NCBI GenBank assembly: GCA_949317995.1
Contig: OX439047.1
Location: forward strand, 44,145,505 to 44,209,504
Length of the DNA: 64,000 nucleotides
Origin: Acholoe squamosa
Taxonomy: Eukaryota; Annelida; Polychaeta; Phyllodocida; Polynoidae
Reading direction: 5' to 3'
The notes under the pieces are model-generated. The model ran no database searches and was not told the origin of the DNA. It saw only the letters and a program-made list of their open reading frames with translations. Shown here one piece after another: positions 1,676 through 61,400 of this stretch. The translations under genes and the position numbers were made by a program. Numbering within the stretch: position 1 is the first letter of the stretch; every line of letters starts with the position of its first letter.

Positions 1676-9715
<8,040 letters not shown>

Positions 9716-30600: not shown

Positions 30601-33600
30601 ACAGTCCTTATACATAGGATACCACTGTATATTGTATCATCCTATATGCAGATCCTATCCTGTATCATCTATTCTATGTCCAATATGGCTTAGACATAGT
30701 GGAATACTTTTGATATGCTCGTGTCGGCTGAACCATACATAGAAAAAGGGTAATTATGGGCGGTTATACCACGATTTCGGCACTTCCGGTGGGTTTATAT
30801 GCAGTTTAGCCGTGCATTATTCTGCATATACCACCCTTGTGCATTTTTGAAATTTTTGGTATATACTTTTTCGGTGTCAAGTTGGACTTAGAATATTTTT
30901 GGAGACGCTGGCGGACATAGAAATTTAGCCTCGCCATTGTTTCAATGTGAAAAACCGTCCCAACTCGTATGAGGATTGAACCCCGGCCGCAGTGGTGGTA
31001 GGCGAAGGCCTTAGCCATAGCGCCACACTGAACGGTGATGAAACACAATGCGAAAATAAATAAATTCTAACCTGAGGTCCTAGTGGTACGTTTCCATTCA
31101 GTTTTCGTATTGATTCCAAGCTTGTCATGTTATAATATTAAAATCCCAAGAAGTATTCGATCCATAGACGAGGAATGCGTGCTAATTTTCTCCATTTTCT
31201 TCGATATAAATAAGAATCCATTGATTTTCCCAACGTACGCGAGTCGCGGCCCGGTTCGCTCTGTGCGAAGCCATTGTTTTTGTTCCTTGCCGGGAGAGGT
31301 ACCGCTGTGTATACAGTCACTTTTCGTATGGAATCCAAGCTTGTCATGTTATAATATTAAAATCCCAAGAAGTTTTCGATCCATAGAAGAGGAATGGGTG
31401 CTAATTTTCTCCATTTTCTTCGATATAAATAAGAATCCATTGATTTTCCAAACGTACGCGAGTCGCGGTCCGGCCATTCCCACCCGCCTCCTTGTCCGGC
31501 GAAAGTGTGTCAGTGGCCCGGATGTAGATATAGGTCATCCGCTCGCTGTACGAGGAAGACGCCGAAAATTTCGGACCGTGTTGGAAAATCAATGGATTCT
31601 TATTTATTTTGAATATATCGGACATATCAAGCATGGCGTGATCATCTAGAGTGTCTAAGGATATGTATGTTTCAATTTGAAAACGTGTCATGGTTGGATT
31701 CGATACGAAATGTGACTGTATACACAGCGGTACCTCTCCCGGCAAGGACCAAAAACAATGGCTTCGCGCAGAGCGGACACGGGCCGTGTCGCTTGCACTT
31801 CCAAAATGTCTTCGCCTGGCTATATTCTTTGGATTTCAGGTAAGAAATTGATACAAAATGGAGGAAATGGTGGTATAAACCTATTAGGTGATGCATATCG
31901 GGGCCCCACGGGCTGTATATGCTGTATATACCCTCGCCGCTCCGCGGCTCAGGTATATACAGCATATACAGCCCTAGGGCCCCGATATGCATCATCTATT
32001 AGCTTATTAATGGATGATCATTATTGAGTGGTATACAGAATATGGGATGGTACCCCTTTATTACCTATTTAGTTTATCTTTTCTCCTGACAGATTTGATG
32101 TGCAGGCTAATTGTAGCATTTAATGATGCCCTGCGTATGCTACCTAGTATACCCAGATAATTATGCGAGTGCTGGGGAGGTCTTAGCTGTGTGTGGTTTA
32201 TCAACCTGTGGTGCTACAATTAGGAAATTAGTGTATAGTTCTATGTGTCGACTCAGGGATTCAGACAGTGAACCAATCAGTCCAGCGAAACAACTACCAA
32301 AAGCTGCTCGAGGTGAGCAACATTGACCTTGAGGTTAGGCTGGTATGTGATCGGCTTCTATGGGATTTATTGCTTTTAGATAGGAATCTGACACCATAGA
32401 CAAACCAGGCGGCGAGTTTCTGCACTATACTACAATAAAATTGTTGGTAGATCAAATGGCAAGCGATATCCAGTACACTTCAAATATGTGAAGAGGCTGG
32501 TACCAAGATCTGAATGTTCACTTTTCTATTGAATGACTGTATTTGAAATATTTGTATCATATGTATGTTGGTTTAACTATGGACCATTGTAATACAACTA
32601 GGTCTGGGATAAAGAATTGAATTGAATATTATTATGCTAGGTACAGCAGCCCTATGTGGTTTTGAACAGTGGGGTGTAAACCAGACCACCAGTGAGGTAT
32701 GCCTGGTCACCATTATGCCATTTAAGTGGTGCCTAGCCCCTATTAGGAACAGGAGAGGAATTTTAGAATCCATCTAATAATTCTGATGTCAGAATATCTG
32801 TTTGTCCATGCAAGCCATGGCCCAAATCAGTTTTTCTTTTGGTTTCAAGTTACCTAGAAGCTGAGAAAATCAAATTGGAAATATTGGATATGGGTGTTTT
32901 GGGAACACTAGTTTGTAGTGTGAATGGTGTCTGAAACTGTGATCTGGGTGTTGGTGTCTGCAGGCAGACTGACAAGGCCAGTTAAGGCTGAGTAACAACT
33001 GGACCTGCACACTCCAGCTAAAGGTAGGCAGGGTTGTTAGCACACTAGGGTCTGTACATAGATCATGTCATGAAAAGAGCAGTCTGTACAGGTGCAGAGG
33101 GTTGTCTGGTCACACTGTAAATAGCACCAATTAAGACACATGTTTGAGTTTGCCTGTACCAAAATAAACCTTAGAAGGGGACCCCAGGAGGCCCCTCACA
33201 GAGGTCCCTTTTCCTATGTTGATCCACATATGCACATTAAATCCTCATTAGCTTGTAGGGGCTTGCATCAAATAACTTCTCCATAAGATATGTGTTGTAG
33301 GTCATACTTAGGTACACCCCTGTACAGTGTTATGCGAATAATATTGGATGGTGAATGTTGGGTTCAGTATGCACCATAGTAGTATAGTATGTATCGGAAC
33401 GGGACTATAGCTAATCTAAGGATATTACTCACTGGGCATGCAGCCAATCAGAGGCCTCTCTTTTGGCGAGAAATTCAAATGTGGGGTCACGTGACCTAGA
33501 CCCCCTGTGGTGTGGTGTCAAAATGGACCAATCAGAGCCCTCCCTTTTGGCGGGAAATTCAAAAATGGTCACGTGACTCAAACCCCCTGTGGTGTGCTGC

Positions 33601-36600
33601 CCTCTGATTGGCTGGCTTTTTAGGTCACATGACCTCTATTATGCAAATAAGATCACATGACCCTAATTTGAATGGACCAATCAGGGGTCGTCATTTTGGT
33701 GGGAAATTTGAAAAATTTGGTGACATCACTTCGTTTTTATTTTTTGCCAAAAAAAAAAAAAAAATTGGAGACCTCTGATTGGTTGGCTGGCTGGCTGGCT
33801 GTCCACACGTCATATCGTCAGTCAGCTGTATGCAGCAAGCAAGTAGTTATGTGGTAACCTTATTAGTGCAAAAGAGGTGTGGTTTATTATGTAGTAGATG
33901 AGGGTACGAGTAAAGTGAGATATTTTTTATATGAATAAAAAAAGGCAAGCTGAAAGCTTGCTAAGAAAAAAAAAAAGAAAAAAAAGGGAGATCTTTGGGG
34001 GGCTCTTGGGGTGGGGGGGCCTTTGGGGGAACCATTGGGTTGGAGGGGCCTTTTTTTTTTAGCAAACCCGCCCCTTGGCTAGGGGCGAGTTTAGTAAAAG
34101 TTAAATTTACATAAGGTAGTTAAATATTAAATAGAAATACAATAGAACCCACATATGGAGTAGTACACATTCCACTTTTCTCATTTTCATTTTTTTTACA
34201 TACAAACTATCTCGGTGTCTTATCTATACATGAATCGCAATTCATTGTGGATGGTCTTTGGTCGGTCCATGTATGTTGTCCATGGTGTCTGGTGTATATA
34301 TGTTGTTTCTCATTTATCTACTGTGTCCTCCGACAGCGTTAGAAAACATAGCAGTTGCTTGTTCAAAAGTAAAAACTCCTCCACGCCGGTTATTTCTGAA
34401 AAGCTGCAACTCGTGGTCCAGAGAGTTCAATTTCTTCAACATTTCCGTCAGCAAAATTTTGCTCTGTGGACTTAGATTCATACCTTCCGAGGCCAACGGA
34501 CAGGTAGGAGAATGTCTGAAATGCTCCAAGGTGATGTCGTCACTTTCTAACCATGTGTGGATAGCGACTCCACATTGGTAGCATTGAACAAGGTCTCTGT
34601 GAAAGGACGGGGTTTATTCCACATAGTTGTGTCGAAAATGTTGAGTGTCCTTGATAAATCGATGAAATGTACATACTTGACCATTCTCTTAGGTGGGTAG
34701 GTAGGTAGGTAACGTGGTGCGAGCAGTGACGACGGTGGTAGTAACTGTGTCGAGTGTGGACGTATCAGTGGTAGGCGAAGTGGTAAATAAGACAGCAGAG
34801 ACGTGACGTAGTGTGGAGAGACATATCTTGTTCCGGTTGTTGTGCGATTCTATTCAGCCTTTCAGACGACAAACCTAGTCCCCATATCTGTCCACTCCCT
34901 GAATGGAGATTCAGATATGGTGACAAAGTACCTCTCCATTGAAAACTGGTCGGGATTGTTGTAATCCAATTTGTGCGTCTTGAAAAAGCTCTGCAACTTA
35001 AGTAATAGATCTTGTCGATGAACACTCATGAAGGTGTGGTGGAGTTCTCCCCATCTGGCATGATCCGTAGTTTTAGACCCCCAAGTTTGGAACATCTCCA
35101 TACACATATCCTGCACCGTCTTGATAACGACCATCTCCTGCAGATGCTCATAGGAGATGTCCAAGTAGATTACCAATTTCTTCCAAGATCCAACTAACAG
35201 CCTTCCTATTTCATGAAGCAAACGATCGCTATATGTAAATTTCATTTCACACGTGACATGATCCTGGACACTCACTTCACATACGCCGTCAGAGTCAGAT
35301 AGGGAGGGGTTATTTTCAACACTCACCTGCAAAAACTTCAGAAATCACTTGATGAAGGTCGGTCGGCGAGCAGGTAGGCATGGAGCTGGCGAGTAGGTGG
35401 TGCTGGTCATGGTAAAGGTAGTGGCGGTAGGTGCGGTAGTCGTAGTGGTCAGCAGTGATTATATCCTTCCAAAGAGAAATTGGGGTGCTTTATATAGGAT
35501 GATCTCAGGCTATTTCCAGCTGGATACTGTGACAAGTGTATTTGGTGAAAATTATGGTGATTGCTTTCATTCTGTGTAGTGACTTATCTTTTAGAGCTGT
35601 TGACATAAACAGGTGGAAAGGTATTGTGATAAGTGTATTTTGGCGGGATTAAAGGGAATTAAACTGTGATAATTAGCTTAATCCACTTTACAGGTGTGAG
35701 GGAGGGTCGCTCGTTAAGGTATTATGAGTTTGAAGTTTTTCTAATCCTATTTAGACGAACTTTCATCTGGATCCTCCTACGGTTTGGTTTACCTGTGGAG
35801 GGCAGGTGAAATTAGATTTATAGACACCCTACCGAGTGAGGATCTCTGTGATCAAAGGGATTAGAGCTCTTTTCTAAAAAGCTATCAAAAGCCGCCTTTG
35901 ATCCTGCTGGAACTTCTTCCACCTAACCTTAGATGATCTAAGAATGGAGTGAAGTTTTTATCTGGATTCTCCTATTGTTTATCTCCCCTGTGGAGGACAG
36001 GTGAAAAATTGAATTTATAGGCCTCCTACCAAGTGAGGGTCTCTTCTGTTGTGACTACAGGATTAATCCTCTTTTCTAAAAAGAGATGTCAAAGCCACCT
36101 TTCATCTATTCAAACTGCACTAAGCAACTTATCTCCAGAGGCGTATATAAGGGAGGGAGAAAAATTTCATTCACTCACACTCTCTTTGCAACCCTCACCA
36201 TGAGTAAGCTACAGCTCTCAAGGAAGACGAGAAGGACCAACAAGACTTCATTGTCTTCTCCTGCTGCTGAAGATAGTACTACTGCAGTTGCTCCTGCTTA
36301 CAACCCACATGATGTAACGGTTGGTGGTGGTGTAACTGCTGCTGCTGGTGGTAGTGGTGGTGATGCTGCTGCTACTACTGCTACTACTGCTGGTGCTGGT
36401 GCTGGTGCTGCTACTGCTACTGCTGCTACTGCTACTGCTGCTGCTACTGTTGCTGATAACGTCGGAAAACTCATGTGATTTACAGAAAAAAGACATCGTT
36501 TGGATGAGTTTTGTTAGCAGGGAATGCTGGAGAAGTCTGTGCTGGTGCATCTACAGCTGACGTAGACACACACGATTGCATAGACGGATTATTTGAAGAC

Positions 36601-39600
36601 CTAGGAGGAGGAGGAAGAGTTGACTTCTCCAGTGGTTGCTCAAAAATCACCCGATCTACTCACTCTGCTATTCACCAGGGGACACCAACGTCAAGCAGAG
36701 TCGGAGAGAGCTTTTTCTTACCTCTCCGACTTACTCACCCTCCTCAAACACGAACGACGGGGTGTGGCTATCATCTTCTCAAAAGTCGCAAGATACCGAC
36801 GCGAGCGTTGCTCCTGTTGCTGGTTCTGCTGTTGATTCAGCTCACACTGATGGTACTTCTCTTCTTACTTTGAAACCCTCTACTGCAATACAAACAGGAG
36901 TCATGGCACACGGGAGTCGCTTGAGTGTAACAAACTTAAGACTACCAACTGGTGAGTTGAGTGACACTGTAGATACCCTGCGTTAGATTCACATCACGCA
37001 AAGATTCAGATACAAATTGGGTTTGTCAGTAGGCTTAATTTTACAACACAGAGAAAACAGAAACAAGCTACGCTACTTTCACGCCTCCCAAAACAACGCG
37101 TCTCTTTTACAACCCCTCCCCACCATAACTAATTCAGAAACTTTGGAAGAGCTTCTCTCCCTCATGGAAAACACTGTCACTTCCGAAGAAGTACAGAAAC
37201 TTTGCGACTCTGACACCAAGTGGAAAGTTCTTTTTCCCACCAATTTGAATGTTTGCGTTTACATGGGACCCAGAGAATTCCCCATAGGAGGTAGGGTTAC
37301 CCATTCGGGTCGACTTAAAAAGAGAGGGGGTGTGTTAGATTTTCCCAACAGGGACAAGTTATGCGTCTTTCACTGCATATCCTTTCACTTATACAAGACT
37401 GGCAAACACGCTTCAAAATTGTTGCGTCTGTTCAATTCCACTGTGAATCCTGAGACCTTTCCAGGTTTGGTCATCAGCGACTTACCCGCGTTAGAGAACT
37501 TGTTCGATATACAAATAGCGGTTTACATCACCCGTAAAGTGAGGGGTCAGAACCTGAAAAACCGAGTTACCCTGATCAGACCACCTTCCAAAACATTGGC
37601 CGCCCGAGGTAAAGTCAACCTACACCTGTCCATGACACACGGTTTGCATGTGTCCATCGTTACGGATTTCAATGAATACGCTGGCATCTACGAATGTCCC
37701 GAGTGTAAGTCGGCGTTCACGACTAAGTTCTTACTGAAAAGACACAGGAACCAACTTTCCTCTTGCAGACAAGTCGCATTGAAATACGTAGGTGGAATCT
37801 ACCAAAATTCGAAAACGGTTTTCAAAGCACTAGCAGATTTTTCCATTTTTCCTCCCGACGGAAATTCAAAAATGTACCCTTACAAAATTACCTTCGATTT
37901 CGAAGCTTTCTTCAGACCACCCAAAAAGCTGTCGACCGAACATGTGTCAGTCCTGTGGGAACATGTCCCTCTGTCGGCTAGCATGGCATCTGACTTTCCA
38001 GGTCGCGAAGGTTGGGTCTGCTTCGTGAGACAATCCAACACAGATTCAGACCCCTTGTTGGATAAAGTTCTGAATTACACAAACGACACCGCCAAAATCA
38101 TGGGGGAAGCAGTGCTAGAACTTTACCGACCGACGTTAGTGAAGTTAGACAAGAGGATAACTGAAGCTCTCCACCTAGAGTAGGCGTTTAGTCCTCCTGG
38201 TGTCGACTTCAATGAAACTCGAACAAGACACCCTTTAGTTGAACTGAAGAAGTTCCGGTCGTAGGTTTCAACTCGGGGCGCTATTACTTAAATCTGATCA
38301 AAGTACAGCTTCACTCGTTTTTCTCCTCCAAAGAGCGACAGAACGAAGCATTCAGCGTCATAAAGAGAAGTAACCAATACTTGCCGATTTACACTTGACA
38401 CATTGTTTTCTTGGACGTAGTTAACTATTTGGCACCTGGTTATAACTACGCGAATTATCTGCTAGCTTTCACCAGAAATCAGCTCAAAGGACACTTTCCT
38501 TATGAATGGATGACATCCACCAGGAAACTGGAAAACAGAGCACTGCCACCAAGATCTGCATTCGACAGCAAACTGACTCGTACCAAGATGTCTGAAACTG
38601 ACTATGCCAAATGTGAAAAAGTTTGGTCCAAACAGAACATGCCAACTTTCAGAGATTACTTGATCCACTACAACAACAAAGACGTGAAACCCTTCATAGA
38701 GGCACTGAATAATCACGCTAAATTTTTCAGGGAGCGCAACATCGACATGTTCAAAGACGGCATCTCCCTTCCTGGTTTGACTTTACGGTTCCTTTTTCAA
38801 ACCACAGACACCCCGTTCGTGACCTTCCACCAGTTCGACTCCCACCTCCACTCTTTAATCAAAAAAAATCTTCCATAGATTTCACGAGAAGGGTACCACG
38901 CTGATAAGGGAACACAAGTACAGCAAAGAAGTGAGAATTTGCGAACACATCCTAGGTATAGATGCTAACTCTCTGTACTTGCGCTGCATGAGTGAAGCAC
39001 ACTGCACAGGTTATTACCTGATGAGACGACCCGAGACCGAGTTCAAACCGAAAATCAGGCATAGACACTCTAAGAGCGCTTTAGAGTGGTTGCGCTAAGT
39101 GGAGCACGCCCACAGCGTGAAACTTCGCCACGCTCTCAACGGGGGGAGGTGTCTCTAGGTTGCCGAAAACTTCGTGTAGGCTTCTTGGATGTTCTTTTGA
39201 AACCAAAAACTATCCGCGCTGTCAAAACAAATTTTAAAGTAATAGAAAACAAAATGTGCACTTACACGATAGAGAAAAAGGGACTGAGTTACTTATATGT
39301 GAAGCGTCGGGTGCATTCTGACAGAGCGACGATGAGTGCTTTAGAGTTATGAAAATACTAAAAAAATATATCATATAAAAAAATAAGAAAAAAAATATGT
39401 AGATAAGCCGGTGAGATAATACCCTTTGTTGTTGTATTAACTTCATCTACTTCGTCCACCTACTTACCTCGTGTATCAGTGTTGAAAAAAATAAACAAGA
39501 CAATGTGTACTTGCGATCCCATTTTCACTTGGGAAATAATAGATGCATCAGATATTTTGTTCTTTAAGGCTCCGTTGTTAAACCAAGGTGTTCATAAAGT

Positions 39601-42600
39601 GTTCGTTTCTAATGATGTATTTGATTCTTTGAGTGTGTGTTTCAAAGATGTGTTTCAAAGAGTGGTTGGTAGCATCACAGATAGAGTTATAGGAGTATAT
39701 CAATTCCATGACGAGAACACATGTGCTTTCGTCAAAAGGCGATATACGATAGAATTGATCAACACGTTGCTTTCTCTTTTACAAAAGAGCTCAGACTTCT
39801 GGAGAAAAATGTGTCATTGTTCAAAGGAACCATTCGACTCTTTTTGTCAAAAGTGTGTCGACCGAATGTTGTGTAGCAAAGTCCCTTACCCCAGTGTACC
39901 AGCTGCTCAACTGAAAAGTATCATGTCCAGACAAACTGAATGGAGTACTGGGTATAGCGCTTCAGTGGATTTCACTTGTGATATCGATGAGATGTGGATG
40001 GGAAATATGGCTTACTCCTATCTTTCATTTCAAAAGGGTACTTGCTCCAAAATTGTACACCAAAATTACACCATGTACAGTCTGAATTATGACAAACAAA
40101 AGTCGAATGTGTACATCTCAATGTGTGAGTTCTGTCATGTACCTCTCCAATATTCTTCTATAATATTATGTAGAGAGTGTGAACTTGCATTTAGCAACTT
40201 GTAAATAATAAAGTGTAAATATTATTTATCAAAATCTTAAAAAAAATGAAATAAATTTTTTTGCTAAGTTTTTATTTTTACTAAATCCGCCCCTAGCCAA
40301 GGGGCTGGTTTACTAAAAAAAAAGCTTTCAGCTTGCCTTTTTTTATTCATATAAAAAATATCTCACTATACTCGCACCCTCATCTACTACATAATAAACC
40401 ACACCTCTTTATGCTAATAATGTCACCACGTAACTACTTGCTTGCTTGCTTACTGCATACAGCTGACTGACGGTATGACGTGTGGACAGCCAGCCAGCAG
40501 GCCAGCTGGTCAGCCAACCGATCAGAGGTCTTCATTTTCTTTCTTTTTTTTTGGCAAAAAGTGATGTCACCGAATTTTTCAAATTTCCCACCAAAATGAC
40601 GATGTCTGATTGGTCCATTCAAATTAGGTTATGTGACCTTATTTGCATAATAGAGGTCACATGACCTAAACAGCCAGCCAATCAGAGGGCGGCACACCAC
40701 AGGGGGTTTGGGTCACGTGACCATTTTTGAATTTCCCGCCAAAAGGGAGGGCTCCGATTGGACTATTATGACGCCACACCACGGGGGGTCTAGGTCACGT
40801 GCCCCCACATTTGAATTTCCCGCCAAAAGGGAGGCCTCTGATTGGCTGCATACCCAGTGAGTAATATCCTTAGATTAACTATAGTCCCGTTCCGCTACAT
40901 ACTATACTACTCACCATGAAAGGTATACCAATTGATAAATCACATTCAATAAACTAGATAGCTCAGCTTGATCTTTTTACAGATGGTTTGTTTTTGGCAT
41001 CTAGTTTATTGTCCTTCAAATAAGCCAGATAACACTCTGTAATCTAGTAAGTTAAGGTCACTGTTAGACCAAAATCAGGGGGTGTGTGGGAACTCCTCTG
41101 TGCACAAAATATAGAGGCCTTACCTGTTAGCCTGCCACCTAGTGCCCTCTCCTGTACTTACCCCTATGTTTGGGAAGTATGATCTTTACTTCCCTACGAA
41201 TTGAGGGTTCCCATCATAGAAATGATTGAAATAAGCTCCAGAGCGTATAGGTTACTAGGACCCGATTCATTTGGCACCCAAGTGCTTTAATTGTTTACAA
41301 TCTCTCTGTTATGATAAACCCCTCTATCGTGATATGTCCAAGTTGTCTATCAGAATTCAAGCCATACAGCATACTAACATATTATGCTATGACAGTTTTG
41401 CAACAAAAGTTACCTGAAATTGGCAGGGAACATGTTTTCCAAATCAATCCAAGCTTTACAGGGTGATAATTGAGTCAAGATAGCTGGCAATGCTGCTCTA
41501 ATCACAGGCCGTTCAATTGTCTCTTTTCCACCAAGTCTAGAAGTAGGTCTATTCAAGTGTTCCTGAACTGCCTCAACAAGGTTTCCATGGATTGTTGTCT
41601 CTCCTTCACTGAGTGTGTCCCCATGTACAAATCTTTTATCCAGCTCCTCTACCACCATTGCCATAAACCAAAGTCGACAACTTGTTGTAATGTCTGACCA
41701 CAAGTATTCGGAGAGTGTACTGAAAGGATCGAAGATTAGTTCAGAATCCTTTTTTCAGTGGCAAAAAGACCTAATTTACAAGCTTGAATTACACTATTAG
41801 ACATTATTCATGGTAGATCTGGAGATACTGTAATCTATTGCAGAATAGCTGAATATCTACTACTAGTAAGTCACTGAATTTGTATTGACAGGAATAAAGA
41901 GGAAATCAGCAAAATGCCTAGGAGATATGAGTCAATCCTACCTGCTATCCTTAATTCTTATCGCACATACATTTGCATTAATCTCCAAAGATTCTGCAAT
42001 TGGGAGATCAGGTGGTAGCATCGCTTCCCCACTGTTACTTATGTTGCTCAGGACCTTAACCTCTCTACCTACTACACCTGTGTGAAGCCAAGGGTGAATA
42101 AGGGTAATCTAATGATCTGAACTTTGAGAGAAAGAGCTCCTGAGTTTGACAGTTTCAGTGATGTATGAGAGAAGAAGGCACCGCTCCTCCATTTTTAGAA
42201 AGATGGAAAATTCATTTGAATGGATGATTCACCTTATTATGATTATTCTATCTAGAATGACAAGAGTAATTATGCTGTGAACACCTTCATGATACCAGAA
42301 GCTCTTAAAGATTGTATCCCAACTAAAATTCTGTCATCTTTGAGTCCTGGCATGTTTGAATGACTCATACCTTCCTATTAATCCTCCCCAAGTTTTAAAA
42401 CATTATGCAGTGTATTTCAGTATGAAATATGCATCTGACTATATCATAATTTTTTATTGTAACACTAATCCACTGGATAATATAACAACCTCTGCATGGG
42501 TAGTTGGTGGCACAATGAGGGCACCTGGTTGCTAATTGATGCAACACATGCACATTCACTATGTACTGACCAGTGGTAATCATCACAGTGGTCAGACGGT

Positions 42601-48600: not shown

Positions 48601-51600
48601 TACCAGGGAATCCTTGTGATTTTGGCAGGTACGGTACCATAGCCGATATTGGGGTGGCAATATTGTATAAGGAAGAGTTATAATGGGTAATTATATAAGA
48701 AGCCTTGCTAAAGGGTTGATATTTGGGGAGTTGATCATATCAAAAGTTTTAGATATTTCCTTCACAAGAGGCTGAAAATCTCTGTGATAATATTATACTG
48801 AAATCATCTATGATTTAGAGGAAAACCAAGAGTACCTAGTAAATCACAAGAGGTTTGCAGTTGATACATCAGGATCCAAGTTCCACACACAGCAGTTTTA
48901 AGAAGGCCCTGCTTGTGATTTTTACCTGTGATGCCACTTCATTTGTATTGCAAGGTATTGAAAACCTAAAGAATTAAGTCAGAGACAGCTGTGATATCAA
49001 TATCAAGTACTCTATCTCTGTGAATCAAACTAGTAACTAGCTTGTACAGAGATAGAATTCACAAAGATTCCCTTTCCCACACTGCAAAAATGGTGTTTAG
49101 ATTTTAAACATGTTTAGGTCTAAACATGTTTAGAATCTAAACATATAGTTCAGTTAGGTGTCTCATCAACTACACATTTAGGAAATGAACACTTTTGTTC
49201 TAACTACATAAACATTTTTGCTAAACATGTTTAGATGTTTAGAGTTTAAACAGCTGAATAATAGGTGTTTAGATTTAAACATCAATATGTTTAGATGCTT
49301 GGATGTCGAATCCACACCAGGTAGCAGCACTACCTTTGAATGGACTATCTGTACACAATTGTAATCAATTGTTGTGACAAGTGTCCCCAAATCCCATGTT
49401 TAGTGTTGTTTCTTTTTATTGAATTTCATGAGAATAGGAACAGCAATAGAAAATTGACTAGATTCTGCTTACACCAGCATCATTGCCATAAAATAGTCAA
49501 TATGCTCCATGACTTACACCTATTTCATGTTATTTTGGAATGGATAAAGCAATGTCCTTGCTGCCAAGCTGCTGTATTTTCTCAAGTCTCTCATAGAGTG
49601 TATATACATGTGTATACGTGTAGCTGTGGCTGACATCTTTGGAGACTTTGACATGTAGATGAATACCTGCTGATATCCCCCCAGTAAATGAGAAAGCAAA
49701 CAAAAGATATTCCTTTATTTTTTCAATGGATACATGTCTGCAAATCCTAACCCTAACAAATCATATAGACATCTAAACACAAAAATTCATAAACATCTAA
49801 GCACAAAATTTCATAGGTATCTAAACACAAATTTTAAACCTAAACACCTACATTTCTAAATACCTGAGCTAAGCACATTGTTTGGCTAAACATGTTTAGG
49901 AAATTAATGTGATTACAAAAACGTTGCAAGAATATGTTTAGAATTGTGTTTACGATCTAAACACCATTTTTGCAGTGCATATTGGTTAATAGTGAGATTT
50001 GGGGAAGGGGAGGTTTGATGAGAATACTTGTGATTCAAAACATTGGCTAGAGTCCAGACTGCAGATATCCATAATAACAGACATTTCAGAACCATTTTTT
50101 GCGTAGTGGGATTTGAATATTTTAACCCACACACACATGATAAATGTATTTGTGGAGCATCTTTATAAAAATAGCAGCATAAATACCTCCTGTGTTGCAG
50201 CCACCTTCTGTTACTGTTTCAGTGTCAAGTCGAAAAATCCAACGTCCTGGAGCACCAGTGTTACCATCGATACGAGTTAAGTTGACAATGTCATGAGTTC
50301 TTGACTGTTTGATTGCAAAAATGTTCTTAGTGTTCCCAGAATTGAATCCAACCTGGAAAACGAGAGTGATTATGAATACTTTTTCATCTACTAAACACAT
50401 CAAAGTGCTACATGGACATGTGCTATCTACACATATGAAAGGCATTTGATTGTGCGCACCATGAGGATGTTTTGAAGTGTTTTGAGGTTTGATACAGCTA
50501 TAACTTAAGTAACACATCCCTATTCATATTGAATATAGCAATATCATACCTTTTCCCATTGGACAGAATTGAGTTAAATTTGTTTGTCAAATGATTTTTA
50601 ATTAGAGGCCTAAAGCAAATAACAGATCAATTTGACTTATGATTGACCACAGTTCCCCAACACACAAGGTTTCATCAAGAACTAGTACCACTAGCTTATT
50701 CATGACATATTCAGTGGCAACACACCTTACACTTAGTTTGTTTTGGCACGTGGTCCATCATTGGATCCTAAACAATGATGATTAATTTGCACAAGGACCC
50801 TCATATCCAACAAGGGAAATTCGTAGGTTGAATGCCAGGTACAATCATGTATGTGTATCCAGTTAGAGGCCTGGTTTGTCTGAAAGGGGGCTTGAGACTA
50901 GCAATTGATCAATTTCCTAGAGTGGCACCAGTTTTCACCTCTGTTTCAATTTTGGTGGCGTCATTGATTAAATTTGATTCCAGTAGGACCACATTCCATC
51001 AGTTGAATCGGTTTCATTTACTGATAATCCATTACAAACAAGTAGTTAACTAATTAACATTTACCTCATTCACAGATGGCCAGAGAAGTTGTCTACACTT
51101 TGCTCAAAAGGGGATGTTGATTTCCATATTGCCAAGGTTGTTGGACAATCTAAACACTCATTGTGAATAAGATTGCCAATGGCATTTCAGTGTCATATAT
51201 ATATTAAACTCCAACTGAGATGACATACAAACCTGAGCAGGTGTACCGCCAGTTCCAGTTCTGGTATTGCCACCACTGGCTCTACCAGTTGTCCAGGTGA
51301 TGGTGCCATATTTGAATAGAACAAATGTGTGACGGCCATTTGTACCAATTGTTAGTTGAAAAGTGTTAATCTGTAATTACAAAGAAAAGGATCTGCTTTC
51401 GGAATGTGCCCTACTTTTTTCAAAGGGTTTACGATCATATGGTCACAAATCATAGAAAGTGTGCATATGGGGCCTTACATTTCATTTGCCCAGACATGTG
51501 CCCAGAAAAAGAATTCCTATAAGTATGCTTCTTTTACAATAGCAAGGACACATCTGACATAAACGATAATGTGATTTCCTAATCTACAGGTCAAAATAGT

Positions 51601-54600
51601 CTGGACCTGAGATTTTCATGGAGGTATGAAGATTGTTTCTGTAGGAAATTAAGCCCTCAACATGGCTTGTAACTCAAATGTCATTTTCCCAGACACAATT
51701 TCGCCCAGACAATTTTGGTCATTTTGGGCACATTTTACCCCCCTGAAGGGCCAAAATATGCATATGGGACCATCAAAACCCATATGTAACATGAAGATCT
51801 CATCCAGCCTGACCCTTTGAGCCAAATAAATAGAGGGGGAAACTAAAATTCGAAGAGTAGGGGCTGGAATACCTCCAAATTCGTCATATGCAAACCTTCT
51901 ATGATTTTCGACCATATTCCTGTTAACACGTTTGGATTGGAAATTGAATAAAATGTACACATCTGTTCATTACAGCCTGAACTTCTTCAAAATAGGGATT
52001 ATATTTCATATACTCATATTTTCTTTTATGTTATTGATTAAAATCCTTTTATGTTGGAAGTTACTGATTTTATCATGCAGTGTCATTTGTTTTCAAGGGA
52101 GAAGGAAATATTCAATTATCAGTAACTCACTGGTCCATTGCGGCCTCCACCAAAGAAGGTAACATTATGCCATGTGGCAATAAAGCAAAAGGTAGCCCTG
52201 AAGTCAAAGAATTCTGTGAATTGCTTTTGGACTTCACATGAAAAACGGTGGAGTATGCTGCTTTCTATAGTTTGCTCATAGTAGATACGACCACCATTTG
52301 TCCTAGTATCTACATCTGCCCAGAATACTGCAATCAACCCATTACCAGTAATGGGAAAGGGCTGTGGGGTGTATATACCATATGCACCCATAAATGACAC
52401 CACCCCATTGGTGTTCACCTGCAAAGACAAGCAGAAGGTTATTTGTACTAATGCAGTGTGTATGAAAAACACTTTTTGTACACTGTGATCTACTCTGATA
52501 CTTCTAACTGCTAGGGAAAAGCCTTACATGGATAGTTTGACATTGAATTTGAATGGCTTAGAAAAGTTTTTTGTCTCACCCAGAGACGGATTTGTATTCC
52601 CTCTGTCTAAACTGTTTCTCATAATGTAAACGTCTTCACCCATATTTCTTTGTAACCATGATGTACCAATGCACTGCTGACAAAGTTCAGGACCTTTTTT
52701 CAATGGACAACTGATGGATTCTACGATAGGTTCATGCCCCTATGACTTGAGAAGAGCCAAATCTTACCAGGTGATCTTAGGACTTTGGTCATAGTGACTA
52801 AATAGCTGGCTACATTACTGGGTGATCATACTGCCTGCTGACTAAATAGCCACCACAGCAGTCGGTCGATAGGGAGGTTTAGCAACCACGACGTACGTCA
52901 CTTTTTTTTCTAATTTTACGTAGACATAGCAATGCTGTAGGTATGCTGCACGTCTGCATTATATTGCCCACGTAGTGCCTGCTTAACCCCTCTAATAAGG
53001 GACTGTGGTATGACAACCCTCTATGTGAATAAATAGTTGGTAGTCATAGCTGCTAGTGTGTGCACTCCCCTGCCCAAAAGTACCCCATCTGTGCTCTTTC
53101 CATTGTAACCATATATGGTTAACCATGAGCCAAGCCTTGCTGTCCAGCATTTTTGTGACTAAAGTCTAAAACTGAACTTTTCAATCTCTATTTGTCCCAA
53201 TAACATTTCAAAAGATAAACATCACACAGCAAGAGTACAGGCCATTATGTGTGATATAATGCATTATATGAGTATTAGTGAGGTACCAGTATTATTTCTC
53301 CCTGCTGCACCCACTGTGGTGTCTCCACCTGTACTCCACTTGTCTAACTAATTCCTACGTGGTTAGTTACACTGTTGTAGCAACCACAGTGCCTCCACCT
53401 CCTCACCCACTCAGTATGTACTGGTGTATTGGTGTCAATTTTCTTTTTATGTTTAGTGTGTTAATTAATATTATTAATGTTTGATATATTATGTAGGGGA
53501 CGTTCTAATATGATATGTAATAATAGCAATGTGCTGCTGAAAGTGATTGACTATAAGTATGAGTTTGGAAATGGGTGAATCTACCCTACATACCCTAGGC
53601 CCATGTGACTAACTGTATATAGTATGGAGTACTGCAGTCCAACACCCTTTCTAACAGTGGAGTGCAAGTCAGACTATATGGGAGGTAAGACAGGTCACAA
53701 TTATGCCATTAGTGGCCCCTTCGGCTGGGTGCTATGATTTCACAGTGGTATGTATTGAGTCAGCAGTTGAATAAATAGGAGCTCCTATTTTGAGGCCTGT
53801 ATTGTAGCTCACAATGTAGTCACTGGTATGGAGTCATTTCTTACCCCTCCCACTACGATTTGAGGGTGTCCAGTTGTGGAAACTATTGAAATAAGGTCCT
53901 GCTCTACAAAAGATCAATACAAAATACATGTCAATGGAAAGATATCATGCAGAAATTGCATCATACAAAAGAATGGACATCAATTTAATTTGACGGAGTT
54001 ATGGAGCCTTTTGTGTGATTTTGGAAGGGTTCAAGTTCTGTCATTTTAACTGTAGTGGTAGGTGTGTGGGTGACCAACATACAGGCAGGCCGGGCTCACT
54101 CACCACTCACGGCAGGTACTGCCTCGGGCCAGGAGGATGTTGCTCCTATGGTAAAAGGTAGTTTTGCTTAAGAAGTGCCTCACCTGCAGCAGTCTCTTTC
54201 TTTGTAGTCCTAACTTTTTTGTTGTTGCACCCAAGTGGTCAACACAAGAGCACTTGAAAGAGTGTGTGCCAAAAGTAAGTATCTCATAATGTAGCACACA
54301 CTATCTTTAGGCAAGCGTTTGAGGTCGTTTATTTTTAGTTTTGAAAATGTTTAGTGGCCAACAATCAATCACGTCTTAATGGAGTTTCTCTGCATCATCA
54401 ACCACATTAATCATACATACAAAACTCCTTTCAAACAATCTATAAGTAGTGGTGAGGATATTGGCATAGTGAAAAGTGGTTTCCATGACACCGTTGGAGC
54501 ATACATCATAAGTTCACATTATAATTATTTCCATTTACATCAGTTATATCTAGACATATATTCTTTACATGTTCATTTTCTCCAAAATATGTGACATGTA

Positions 54601-55433: not shown

Positions 55434-58400
55434 AGAGATCCAGATAGAAACAGAGAGAGATAGATAAAGATAAATACAAAGAGACAAACACACACATAGA
55501 AAGAGAGAGTGGTAAGGGTTTAGTGATAATAGATAATCCAGGCGCTGGCAGATGTACATAGACACCTTTCTCACTCCATATTGCTAAACCCTTAAGGGTT
55601 GCTCTAACCACTTAAGGGCAGCGTCTCTAAATGGTGGATCCAATATTGACATTGTCTCAACAGGATTACCAAGTTATTGATCAATTTACCTTGCATATAT
55701 CCCACTGGGCACATCAACATTGATTCAGCGTTGAAACAACGTTTGCAATGTTTGCATATCAACAGTTGATAAAGGCTTCAAATATAGTTGAATTTGAAAG
55801 TTGACACAACATAATCAAAATCAACTGTGATTCAACATCTAACCATCAGCGCTGATTCCACGTTTGTATTTCTATGTTGATTCAACATTGACACAACATT
55901 GATATGATGTTGAAACAACGTTGATATTTGTTAGGGCATTCTTTGTTGACATGTCAATGTTGAATCAACATTGAATCAACATTGAAATCAATATTGTTGA
56001 TTCAACATTGACAAATCAATGTTGAGTCAACATTGAATTGAAAACAATATTTCAACATTGATATGTCAACTGTTGATTGGATGTTGAAATGGTGTTGGTT
56101 GACAACATTGAAATAGAATCATTGTAAAGGTGTTGAAGACAGGTTGATCAACATCATCAACATAATATCAGCAGGTTGTCAATGTTGATGCAACGTTCTG
56201 TGCCCACTGGGATGGTGCACTCCAAGCTCAGCCTATTACAGTCAGGACCCCTTACTCTGTCACACTACAATCCATCACCCATACTATCCGCCATATATAG
56301 ACAGGTAACAGTCCATATAGCACTACTTTTAAACATGCACAAAAAAAAGACAAACAAAAAAAACAGACAAGAATAATCAGTTCCATATGTGTACCCTGCA
56401 CTAGCATTATATTTTCCATATGTGTGACGTCACTGCCACATTTGTGACATCATTTAGGGAGTTCCCTAGGGGTTTTCCTCAAATAATCTTCCCACATAGG
56501 TCCCGCATTTGACACTCCGGATATACATATAAAACACCTATGTGGAAAAAGAGCTTCCAGGTAGTGTGTATAAGACCTATAATTATGCACAACCTGGTTT
56601 TGCATATATCATCGGCCTAAAATGGTCCAGCAGTTATTTTAGGCAGGATAGCTATGCTGTTATTGGCAGGAGGTGCTAGATGTGAACATAGACATCATAC
56701 GTTGTATACTACTGCCCCTAGCCCCCCTATCTTGTATGGGGTAACTGTCATATTTCACAGGTAGTGCAAAACTAGCTGACACAATTTACATCATTCTTAT
56801 GTGAAAAACACGTAGCTCATAGCTTAACATAAAAAAGAGATGACAAGATGAGTTGTGTTAGGAGGGAAGGGTCCGACACTTTGGGGATTATCTCAGCCTA
56901 TACGATGCATTGTGACGACCAACTAAGGTGTGGCAGAAAGTGCCCAATAGGGCATGACATCTGTGTATATTGTGTACTGCGTCATATAGCAGGGTATATA
57001 TTCATATGAAATTAGGTCAGCTACACTGCAAAACATAGATGTGTTAAGGTTTTAAAAATTATCTCAAGCCTCTTCAGGAGTTTAATACAAAAGACCCTGA
57101 TATCGCTACCCTTGCGTTGGTAGCGATCTTTCTGCCTTATTACTTTCAGCAAAGGTAAGGCTAGACTCCTTTCTCATAGCCAGCCCCATCTTTTCAGTGG
57201 TATTAGCTTTAGCCCTGCTTATACTATTCCAAGCAGAACAGTAGAGTAAAGCACATGTTACATGGACAATAAGTTACAATAAGAAGGAAATAGTAGTCCC
57301 AAATTTGCCGGTGAATCAAGGTTAATTTGAAAGGGTTTTCTATCTACAGTGGGAGCACACACAAAACTGTAAAAAATGTCCGGTAATGCCACTTTAATGA
57401 AAACTGCAACAAGTTTATGCAATCTGACACCTTTCTTTTTTGTGCAAACCTGGACAGACATGGATATTCTATTGACAATATAATTTTGTTGAGAAGTAGC
57501 AGACCAAGCAGCAGCAATATAGATTGATGTATCATTCATTACTCTTCTTCGGTATTCCTCTGAGGGTAGGGCGTAGGAGTTATAAAAGCACATTGATACC
57601 CGATCCCAAATCTCACAACTCAGATAATTAATACTCCCCAAATGCAATAGATATAATGCGCCTAGCTTACAAAAAATCCGGAAACGTATTTCACATATGA
57701 AATATACCATGACTCACAGAATTGAACCACTACACTGTTTATTCTATATTAAGTAAGAAGATGGCGGGGTAAGAAGATAGCGGCAATCAACGAGTAGACG
57801 GTCAGAGCGGGCTCCACACACATTGGTCAATAACTGTAGTCAACCTAACGACAGGGGGTTACATAGTGTCTTTCCAGCAGTATAAAGGATTAATACACCA
57901 CTATGACTAGAGGAAGAGGCCAAACAAGGGGTAGTGGCAGAGATAGGAGACGAAATGACCTACTCCCACCGGATGCAAGCCTAACAGCCATTATCAACGC
58001 TGTCAACGGTTTGGGGCTACGCATCAGCGATACTGAGGAGAAAATAAATGGGATACTTACAACACTAGAGAAGGTACAGTCAACAATGGTTAAACTAGAG
58101 AATACCTGTAAAACCACTACAAGACGGCATAGCTAGGAAGCCTACCATTCGCCCCATAAAAGTGATTTTCCACAAAATTACCACCAAACCCAAGGTCACA
58201 AATCATAGAAAGTGTGCATATGGGGCTTTACATGTCATTCGCCCAGACATGTGCCCAGAAAAAGAATTCTTTTGTAAAAGAAGTATGCTTCTTTTACAAT
58301 AGCAAGGACACATCTGACATAAATGATAATGTGATTTTCTTAATCTACAGGTCAAAATAGTCTGTAGAAAATTAAGCCTTCAACATGGCTTGTAACTCAA

Positions 58401-61400
58401 ATGTCATTCTCCCAGACACAATTTCGCCCAGACAATTTTGGTCATTTTGGGCACATTTTACCCCCTTGGAGCCCAAAATATGCATATGGGACCATCAAAA
58501 CCCATATGTAGCATGAAGATCTCATCCAGCCTGAAACTTTGAGCCAAAATAATAGAGGGGGAAACTAAAATTCGAAGAGTAGGGACTGGAATACCTCCAA
58601 ATTCGTCATATGCAAACCTTCTATGATTTTTGACCCCAAAGTGATGTCTCTGCTCAAAAATCTGAAAAATAATGACACATGGAGGTCTGTATCTCGATTG
58701 GTGATGAGCTGACAGCAGAGGAACAATGTAATTTCACAGACTTAAGATCCATTCATTTCCTGGCACAATCTCTTAACTACAACAGCCAACTACGCCAGAG
58801 ATATGTCATTATTGAGGAAATGTCATACACTCATGCCATGCTCAATAAAATCCCACTACCAGATATTAATCTTGAAAATGCCACGACAGAGTATACTGAT
58901 GACGGCCTCATGTTCAGATCTCAACATAACCACCTATCCAATCTATTTCCAGTTGACTTCAAGGTGGAGGGGGTATCTTACAACTCATCTGAACAAGGTT
59001 TTCAGGCCACAAAGGCAAGGATGAATGGAAGAAAAGATATTGAAGAGCTCATAATGAGTGCCTCGTGTCCCTATGTAATAATGGAGTTGGGAAAACAGGT
59101 TCAACATAGAGCTGACTGGTCCAAAAGAGCTAAAGGCATAATGTACTGTATAAACAAAGCAACATTCAGCGTGCCCTTTTGTAGAGATGCATTGCAGAAA
59201 ACAGAAGGCCACTTGTATGAGGCATCATTCCACCCTGTGTGGTCATGTGGCTACCACCTAGGGCAAGCGAGGTATTGCTATCAGGGAAACCTAAAGGCTA
59301 GAAATCTCATTGGAAAAGTTCTAGAAAGAATTAGGACAGAACAGCATGCAACATATGATAGAGACGGTGGATGGGATGAAGATGAAGAGTATTCAAATGA
59401 GAATGATTTAGAGAATGCTGAGTATGGAGATGATGCCGACCTTGAAGAACATGATGATACTTTTGATGATGAAGAACTCGAGGAGGAGGAGGAACAGGCC
59501 CAAATAACCTACAGGCCACACCAGTCTAAAGTACCAATTAACATTCCTAACCAAAGCCTGACAACCTAATTTGAAATGAACATGCAATTTACCCATTGAC
59601 CTCAAGTGCGTCCAAATCCGTCAAGACGCTGTTGATTCAGCATTGGAATTGTTCCATTTTTGACGTGGTAGACCCTTACAATGACAGCAGTGGGACAAGT
59701 CATTCAATAGATCAGCTGTTCAACGTGTAATGTATTCATGTGTCTATGGTTTAATAGTAGGCCTATTGCATGAGTTAAATGTGTAGAGGCTAGGTGAAAG
59801 GGTGCTCCATGCTAAAAATCAACTTTAAAATTCAGATCACTAGCTTTACAGTGATATATTGCATGAGAAGATACTCCTGTTAGTTTTGGAGGAATAGCTT
59901 GCTAAATATGGGTAGGTAAGACCATTTCATGAATGTCAATCAGCCCTACGTCTCCATGGTCATGAGATATAATTAACTATATAACTATAATTAGCATAAT
60001 TTATGCCCGATCCCAAATCTCACAACTCAGATAATTAATACTCCCAAAATGCAATAGATATAATGCTTGCTAAATATGGGTAGGTAGGACCATTTCATGA
60101 ATGTCAATCAGCCCTACGTCTCCATGGTCATGAGATATAATTAACTATATAACTATAATTAGCATAATTTATGCTAATTAGCTAAATTAGCATAAATTTT
60201 CATTCTTTTGCCCATAACTTTTGATCTAGAAATGATATTTTCATTCTGTTTTCACCATAGTGGACCTTGTGGAACGTTCCTAATAGGATCATCGATTTTC
60301 TTATTTAGAATGAACATCATGTTTCCATGGCAACAGAAATCAACAAAAATGCCTATTTTGGCCCAAAAACATTCTATTTAGTGCCAAATATGAACATTTC
60401 TCCCTAAAATAGAACGTTTTATAAAAAAAACCTTTGAATTCTCCACAAAAAAAGTAGCCTATAGCAGTTTTAGGCATATTTTTCCTATTCTAGCCCATAG
60501 TGGTGCCCCCTGGTGGCTAAAACAGGTACTAAATCCCGCAGGAACCCCCATTTCTGCTTGCTGGCTCACAAATTATGCACCATTGTACTTCTTTGTTCAT
60601 ATGTCATGCTATATATTCATGTTTTGAATATCAAATTAATCAATTAACTTGGGTATTTAATAATTTATTCTTTATTTTTTTCTTTAATTTTTTAGTGCTC
60701 TCTATTTGTCATGAATCATGTAATATTTCATATAACAAGGTTCTAACGCAATGTTCTGCAAGCACGCTCATAGATTTCAAAAAAGGTTTCTCAGTTGTTC
60801 ATCTAAATGCTAGAAGCATTAGACATAAGATAGTTATTGCAAGAAGGGAACTTAATAACTTAAACATAGACATTGTTCTACTTTCTGAACCCTGGTTAAA
60901 TGACAACGACTGTTTGTATACATTCCCTAGATATAATCTGTTTTGACAGGATAGAATCAGTGTATTTAGGGGAGGGGGGCTATGTGCATATTGAGATTCA
61001 ATGGTTATTATCGTAAAAGATGCAGAGAAATGCTCAATTGTATGTAATGTCTACAGACCCCCAAATGGTTCATTATATGATTTTTGTGAGACTTTTAAAG
61101 CCCTTTTTTTTGCAAATTGAAAACATTGATGACTTTGACATGTATGTTATCAGTGATTTCAATGTCAATACCTTAAAAACTCTAATGAAAAGAACCTCCT
61201 GTATGAAACCATGGACCAATATCATTTAAAACAGGTTGCTCAAAATGTCACCACATCTTCTGGTACTAACACTTGTATTGATCTCATATTTACAAACTGT
61301 AATGATATTGTATCAGCTGGTCCACTGAGCATACACCTTAGTGACCATCTTCCAATTCACATTATCAAAAGACATCCTAAAGTTAAGAAATCATTTAGAA

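Follow-up and report, generated by a model that had tools for sequence, protein, structure and literature searches.

A defective copy of a recurrent death-domain and BIR gene pair in a Polinton-type element of Acholoe squamosa

A frame with a death-domain pattern and a frame with a BIR-type zinc pattern lie within 1 kb of each other on the minus strand of the 64,000-nucleotide stretch of Acholoe squamosa DNA analysed here (the window), raising the question of whether they belong to a virus-like element or to a host gene, and of what such a pair would do. The initial annotation had taken them for a death domain and a BIR fragment that together suggest a host-defence-suppression cassette, and both frames were found at the positions it gave. 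The frame at 34317-34613 contains the pattern C-x2-C-x16-H-x6-C together with DLVQC and EHFRHSPTC and matches Pfam BIR (PF00653; 7.3e-9, 36.5 bits, cut-off 22.9), though over profile positions 34-69 of 70 only. The frame at 34865-35344 matches Pfam Death (PF00531; 3.6e-5, 24.3 bits, cut-off 22.6), so that both domain assignments are borne out by matches over the curated cut-offs. The locus is real and unusual. It holds a dead copy of a Polinton-type element whose recurrent death-domain and BIR genes form a pair, and a function for this pair can be proposed from the sequences.

The element is an internally deleted copy, 7534 bp in length (33378-40911), of the Polinton/Maverick type, with inverted repeats at both ends (left, 33378-33959, plus strand; right, 40322-40911, minus strand) and the 6-bp duplication CACCAT immediately outside them (33372-33377 and 40912-40917). 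The K2P distance between its two repeats is 0.061 over 568 sites. Ends were inspected in seven copies, the window and six fetched from elsewhere in the genome, and both ends were readable in the window, L009 (with its left end in L010), L013/L014 and L015/L016; the right end of L019/L020 is truncated, and L011 and L017 have only part of one repeat. All four copies with both ends readable have a 6-bp target duplication, exact in three and at 5/6 in the fourth, and terminal inverted repeats of approximately 0.56-0.6 kb. The distances between the repeats within these four copies are 0.061, 0.080, 0.045 and 0.050, so the insertions are not recent. Measured from the repeat positions, the element is 8.6-10.6 kb long in four of the six fetched copies. 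The virus-like context proposed by the initial annotation was therefore upheld, with the frames lying between inverted repeats, within a 6-bp duplication and beside PolB-like motifs, rather than in an adjacent host gene.

The polymerase is represented in the window by a broken PolB-type gene found by motif scan (36987-39400, plus strand), followed by an open frame with no function assigned (39407-40204, plus strand), the DNA of which is 93% identical in L009, where the frame is broken. In the same type of scan L009 has collinear PolB-like motifs that we take to be exo I, exo II, A, B and C. The window keeps an exo I-like (37893), an exo II-like (38270) and a motif A-like (38961) sequence; motifs B and C were not found there by the scan, which fits with approximately 1.3 kb of L009 being absent from the window. 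L011 is without the polymerase part. Simple shuffling of the element, repeated 200 times, produced motif A 12 times and the other four motifs not once. The assignment as PolB rests on these motifs, the broken PolB pieces having given no match in Pfam, PHROGs or the PDB. Nor was a Pfam match to an integrase, capsid, protease or packaging ATPase seen in 13 broken frames from the window, L009, L013 and L015, a weak negative because the scanned frames are broken and the PolB went likewise unrecognised. The window-type element is read as a non-autonomous derivative. Candidate helper Polintons are present in the genome, since at least 206 matches to PF03175 (DNA_pol_B_2) were found (71 of the 871 candidates scored), many of them lying in equally scoring open frames 1426-1497 residues long. 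These frames suggest that the genome may contain several Polinton-type families with recent activity.

Elsewhere in the window a NADAR domain is encoded by one open frame (58676-59569; Pfam 4.2e-16) that comes directly after one of two direct repeats of approximately 0.45 kb (51441-51913 and 58194-58635). Two NIDO (nidogen-like) frames lie approximately 46 kb apart on the minus strand (52119-52523 and 5930-6265; 2.6e-25 and 3.9e-25), and a cluster of direct and inverted repeats, with a 165-nt direct pair and 109-nt inverted arms, occupies 31090-31778.

Within the element the death frame corresponds to the first portion of a gene with tandem death domains. The first death domain and the start of the second, identified by Pfam Death and by alignment to the open L009 gene, occupy 34865-35326 on the minus strand in broken form, and a remnant of the second, partly deleted and in another frame, lies at 34748-34878 on the same strand, where it was detected by tblastn with the related protein P0001 (34878-34810) and by alignment of the L009 protein. 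The latter aligns to the window through residue 188, with two stops. The gene has suffered an altered start codon, a later frame shift and a deletion in the second death domain. The death domain of the initial annotation is thus genuine, but it is one of a tandem of which the second member has been shifted out of frame. The open copy in L009 encodes a protein of 224 residues with two Pfam Death stretches (6.7e-11), and two such stretches are found in each of P0001, P0002, P0003, L009, L063, L069 and L084. Of these, P0001 came from a protein collection and is 63% identical to the window death frame (one of five candidates); P0002 and P0003 are 64% and 57% identical to P0001 (three of 358 candidates, counting the query). 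The sources of the relatives from this collection are marked lgn and ena.

No DED was matched in these death proteins up to an E-value of 1, the first domain scoring as Death, and no effector domain was recognised in the tandem-death protein. Against PDB sequences the window death piece alone gave at best CRADD (0.27), while a profile that includes the L084 protein (A4) gave FADD as its best match (6.1e-5) over FADD residues 63-165, which we take to span the end of the first domain, the linker and most of the death domain. The FADD match is weaker with other profiles (0.0015 and 0.026), so this similarity is borderline and dependent on the profile. For the first death domain the PDB matches of profile A4 were NRADD, PIDD and CRADD (0.02-0.2). 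Weak matches below the cut-off to bacterial death-like domain 3 (PF20690; 1.5e-5 to 0.064) were also seen in P0001-P0003, L009, L063, L069 and L084. NCBIfam returned weak, unrelated matches only for P0001 and P0002 and none for the L009 proteins.

The BIR gene is broken in a similar way. Its N-terminal part (34589-34684, minus strand; tblastn with residues 1-32 of the L009 BIR protein, 81% identical) is out of frame with the C-terminal part (34314-34598, minus strand; residues 43-131, 92% identical), which carries the zinc-site pattern and the Pfam BIR match and runs to the stop. The open L009 copy encodes a protein of 139 residues with one whole BIR matching profile positions 1-69 (2.5e-18). 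The window gene has lost 40 of the 42 nt of one segment, and this segment is full length in 43 of the 54 copies, out of 72, in which it could be measured. The BIR fragment of the initial annotation accordingly contains a real BIR domain but is the broken form of a whole one, and a designed half-domain is ruled out by the presence of the missing stretch in those 43 copies.

The zinc ligands C-C-H-C are invariant in an alignment of eight BIR proteins (A2), and the protein collection yielded eight BIR relatives (from ten candidates). No RING was found in the BIR proteins of L009, P0004, P0007, L084 or L083. Among PDB sequences the window BIR piece is closest to BIRC1 (NAIP; 3.1e-10). Two tryptophans present in NAIP are, however, missing from the aligned C-terminal half of the element BIRs. 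In NAIP these tryptophans have a role in ligand binding, and their absence makes caspase or IBM binding by the element BIRs doubtful. A search of IMG/VR gave no confirmed relative for the death proteins (A1), the BIR proteins (A2) or two PolB pieces.

Splice-like sites of matching phase are visible by eye at the edges of the window frames, as they would be if the two were exons of one spliced Death-BIR fusion gene. Other copies read straight through the supposed exon ends into the second death domain, a stop and then a separate, whole BIR gene, so that this explanation was rejected and is scarcely credible.

The genome that contains the window (1.48 Gb, 63 contigs) was searched with the window death frame, which gave at least 151 matches (150 scored of 1873 first-look candidates). 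From 80 loci, after removal of the duplicates L004 and L005 and of the outer flanks L010, L012, L014, L016, L018 and L020, 72 copies were examined: the window, 51 top-scoring copies, 14 that are more diverged (64-71% identical) and a further six, a sample that favours copies like that in the window. Both a death and a BIR match, each at 1e-4 or better, were found in 62 of the 72. The two are on the same strand in all 62, and the BIR gene is downstream in 61, with a gap of 14-1110 bp (median 272); the exception is L030, in which only the end of the BIR was detected and the computed gap is -25. In some of the ten copies without a BIR match the BIR may sit past the fetched stretch.

This recurrence bears on whether the frames could be exons of a host gene beside which the element merely landed. 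Death and BIR are host domain types, and in oysters host IAPs are described that combine BIR, RING and death domain (PMC8917759). Against such an origin, the frames sit between the inverted repeats, the pair is located on many chromosomes, the flanking element DNA matches in six compared copies (in L011 only beside the pair and in part of one repeat), and each gene is a single open frame in native open copies. The initial annotation had allowed that the frames might be host exons unrelated to the element; position between the repeats, recurrence and matching flanks contradict this, and we regard it as very improbable. The best reading is that the two frames are the worn remains of neighbouring same-strand genes in a Polinton-type element.

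A frame was counted as open if a single stop-free alignment covered at least 85%. On this basis the death gene is open in 23 of the 72 copies, the BIR gene in 15 and both in nine; the BIR is shortened in two of the nine (L011 and L034). The window copy is defective in both genes and in the polymerase and, because these are broken, cannot act as a cassette. The pairing noted by the initial annotation is borne out in that it recurs, in this family and again in L084.

For pairs of open copies dN/dS in frame was 0.51 for the death gene (253 pairs) and 0.53 for the BIR gene (105 pairs); out of frame it was 0.86 and 0.92 for the former and 0.70 and 0.98 for the latter. The pairs are not independent and the open copies were selected. 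Between two sub-groups of the death gene the ratio was 0.57, against 0.74 and 0.96 out of frame. There is therefore moderate support for coding-frame constraint on both genes. The constraint is modest, since third codon positions are barely more diverged than first (0.071, 0.063 and 0.094 at the three positions of the death gene in the main group; 0.135, 0.106 and 0.138 in the BIR gene), as expected for copies decaying after insertion. Close pairs (dS under 0.1) gave ratios of 0.71 and 0.79 and distant pairs 0.45-0.54, a trend that sorting by dS alone favours. Decay of most sampled copies, modest constraint and insertions that are not recent would also suit passive cargo, that is, an element that captured and multiplied host cell-death genes to no benefit of its own. 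The in-frame ratios below those out of frame speak against this, and we consider it rather unlikely.

A search of the genome with the Pfam BIR profile gave at least 150 matches, all over the cut-off (150 scored of 588 candidates). At least 22 of the 150 listed lie within 2.5 kb of a listed death match, a lower bound because only 150 of the 1873 death candidates were listed; of the others, 54 are either on a small contig or no more than 300 kb from the end of a contig, one has a listed PolB match no more than 20 kb away and 73 are elsewhere. Equal-scoring BIR frames of 209, 135 and 149 residues occur on small contigs and close to the ends of many contigs of chromosome size (for example C7:41092, C8:217022, C10:81357291 and C11:93992) and resemble a duplicated subtelomeric block.

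Two further BIR loci from outside the 22 were read, L084 and L083, and the death/BIR pair is present in one of them. L084 is one of five equal-scoring frames of 188 residues (two on C4 and one each on C6, C7 and C11). Its tandem-death frame is open (31% identical to that of the window family over 183 residues, 5e-21), and approximately 200 bp further on the same strand there is an open BIR frame (47%, 4e-35). Gene order and strand are those of the window family, the pair is deeply diverged, and no DNA similarity to the window is detectable. The spread of L084 suggests a mobile family, but the pair could also consist of multicopy host genes: no Pfam polymerase, integrase or capsid match was found in four frames of L084 and its 2.5-kb flank L085, and no inverted repeats within 6 kb. 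L084 cuts both ways for passive cargo, being a possible host donor type and at the same time a repeat of the pair, in order and strand, with both frames open at 31% and 47% protein identity; the relatives in other data sets also count against passive carriage.

In L083 an open BIR frame (2.1e-18) lies between a Walker-A-like frame, the motif being seen by eye and Pox_A32 reaching only 0.039, under the cut-off, and another frame. No death match was found in its 2 kb. A PF03175 match in an open frame of 1582 residues starts 7.7 kb from this BIR, and it would seem likely that BIR, ATPase-like frame and PF03175 frame belong to one element.

What the pair does in an intact element has to be read from this material. 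Host-defence suppression is not supported in the form given by the initial annotation; it is a proposal that draws on the types of domain and on the moderate constraint. Decoys would be expected to look like this, with two death domains but no effector in one protein and a BIR but no RING in the other. In insects and mammals FADD, RIPK1/IMD, caspase-8/Dredd and IAPs work together in a single complex, so a FADD-like protein and a BIR protein would meet in this FADD/caspase-8/IAP hub, and for that reason a joint block there is taken as the most likely action. We propose, with about an even chance of being right, that the pair is a Polinton cassette consisting of a FADD-like adaptor mimic and a RING-less BIR protein that block a host cell-death complex. 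The cassette would have been active while the element lineage was active, the window copy being defective. Its first protein, with two death domains and no effector, would most likely bind the death domains of host adaptors of the FADD/RIPK1 class and so cap or divert the complex that activates caspase-8-type caspases, the BIR protein occupying IAP- or caspase-binding partners within the same complex. The predicted outcome is a cell that neither dies nor signals during replication of the element.

The 6-bp duplication, the pairing, the domains, the constraint, the L084 pair, the L083 BIR near a PF03175 frame, the FADD profile match and the outside relatives all support the cassette. It is weakened by the decayed copies, the modest constraint, the dependence of the FADD match on the profile, the missing tryptophans, the possible host status of L084 and the lone BIR of L083. 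We infer expression, binding partners, the direction of the effect and the element-borne status of the L084 pair.

The same fixed order of adaptor-like and inhibitor-like genes could instead belong to a self-balancing pair, with a death protein that drives death signalling and a BIR protein that holds it in check. A cell that lost the element, or was infected by a competing virus, would then be killed, which would amount to addiction or to virophage-like protection. The analogy is with modules that pair a killer with its antidote. Such a balance is made improbable by L083, where the 2 kb read contain a BIR gene and no death gene, and by the known viral death-fold proteins, which are mostly inhibitors. 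A wider and more tentative possibility goes beyond the blocking cassette: Polintons of this animal lineage may carry an ancient module of adaptor mimic and RING-less BIR protein, kept through deep element divergence, that hits the FADD/caspase-8/IAP hub jointly, and some mollusc "retroposed" intronless BIR genes may be Polinton cargo, in part later available to the host.

Viruses with one cell-death inhibitor are well known. In the open-licence literature no paper was found for 'Polinton' with 'death domain' (with or without 'inhibitor of apoptosis'), nor any transposing virus-like element that keeps adaptor-like and IAP-like genes in fixed order. If the proposal is true, Polintons fight or exploit host cell-death signalling, and element cargo would be a possible other source of the scattered BIR genes without introns that are currently assigned to expansions of host IAPs. 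The copies would also provide naturally occurring pairs with which to study the encounter of death-domain adaptors with BIR proteins.

Several known systems resemble the element or its products in part. With Polintons/Mavericks, including those of the adintovirus type, it shares terminal inverted repeats, a 6-bp target duplication and, in L009, ordered PolB-like motifs; it differs in that its copies are 8.6-10.6 kb long (four measured) and carry the death/BIR pair, and in the lack of an integrase, capsid, protease or ATPase match in the 13 broken frames. Baculovirus IAP proteins carry BIR domains and, like the element BIR, viral IAPs are stand-alone BIR proteins on a virus or virus-like element. 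The element protein differs from them in having one BIR and no RING found, in being paired with a death-domain gene and in having BIRC1/NAIP as its nearest solved BIRs. Viral FLIPs are tandem death-effector domains. Like the element death protein they have a pair of death-fold domains and no enzyme, an arrangement that would be expected to cap adaptor complexes; the domains of the element protein are called Death by Pfam, and a tandem DED is absent. The adaptor FADD has the same two-domain order and gives the borderline, profile-dependent match at 6.1e-5, but in the element protein the first domain scores as Death, the N-terminal DED is absent and the gene is encoded in an element.

Two further sources are relevant to bidnavirus PolB derived from Polintons and to the number of IAP copies in bivalves (PMC4061559 and PMC9993606), and intronless single-BIR genes also appear in the oyster text cited above (PMC8917759). 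For the hard clam genome, a Maverick content of 1.69 and 1.93% is given in two columns of a table in one report (PMC8905726). Another describes 159 IAPs in the hard clam, 51 of them intronless, dispersed and attributed to retroposition, with DNA transposons enriched near IAP genes (PMC7831173). Like the element BIR, these intronless hard clam genes have a single BIR in one exon and are dispersed; in that text they are read as retroposed from a parent gene (PMC7831173), whereas the element BIR is read here as cargo.
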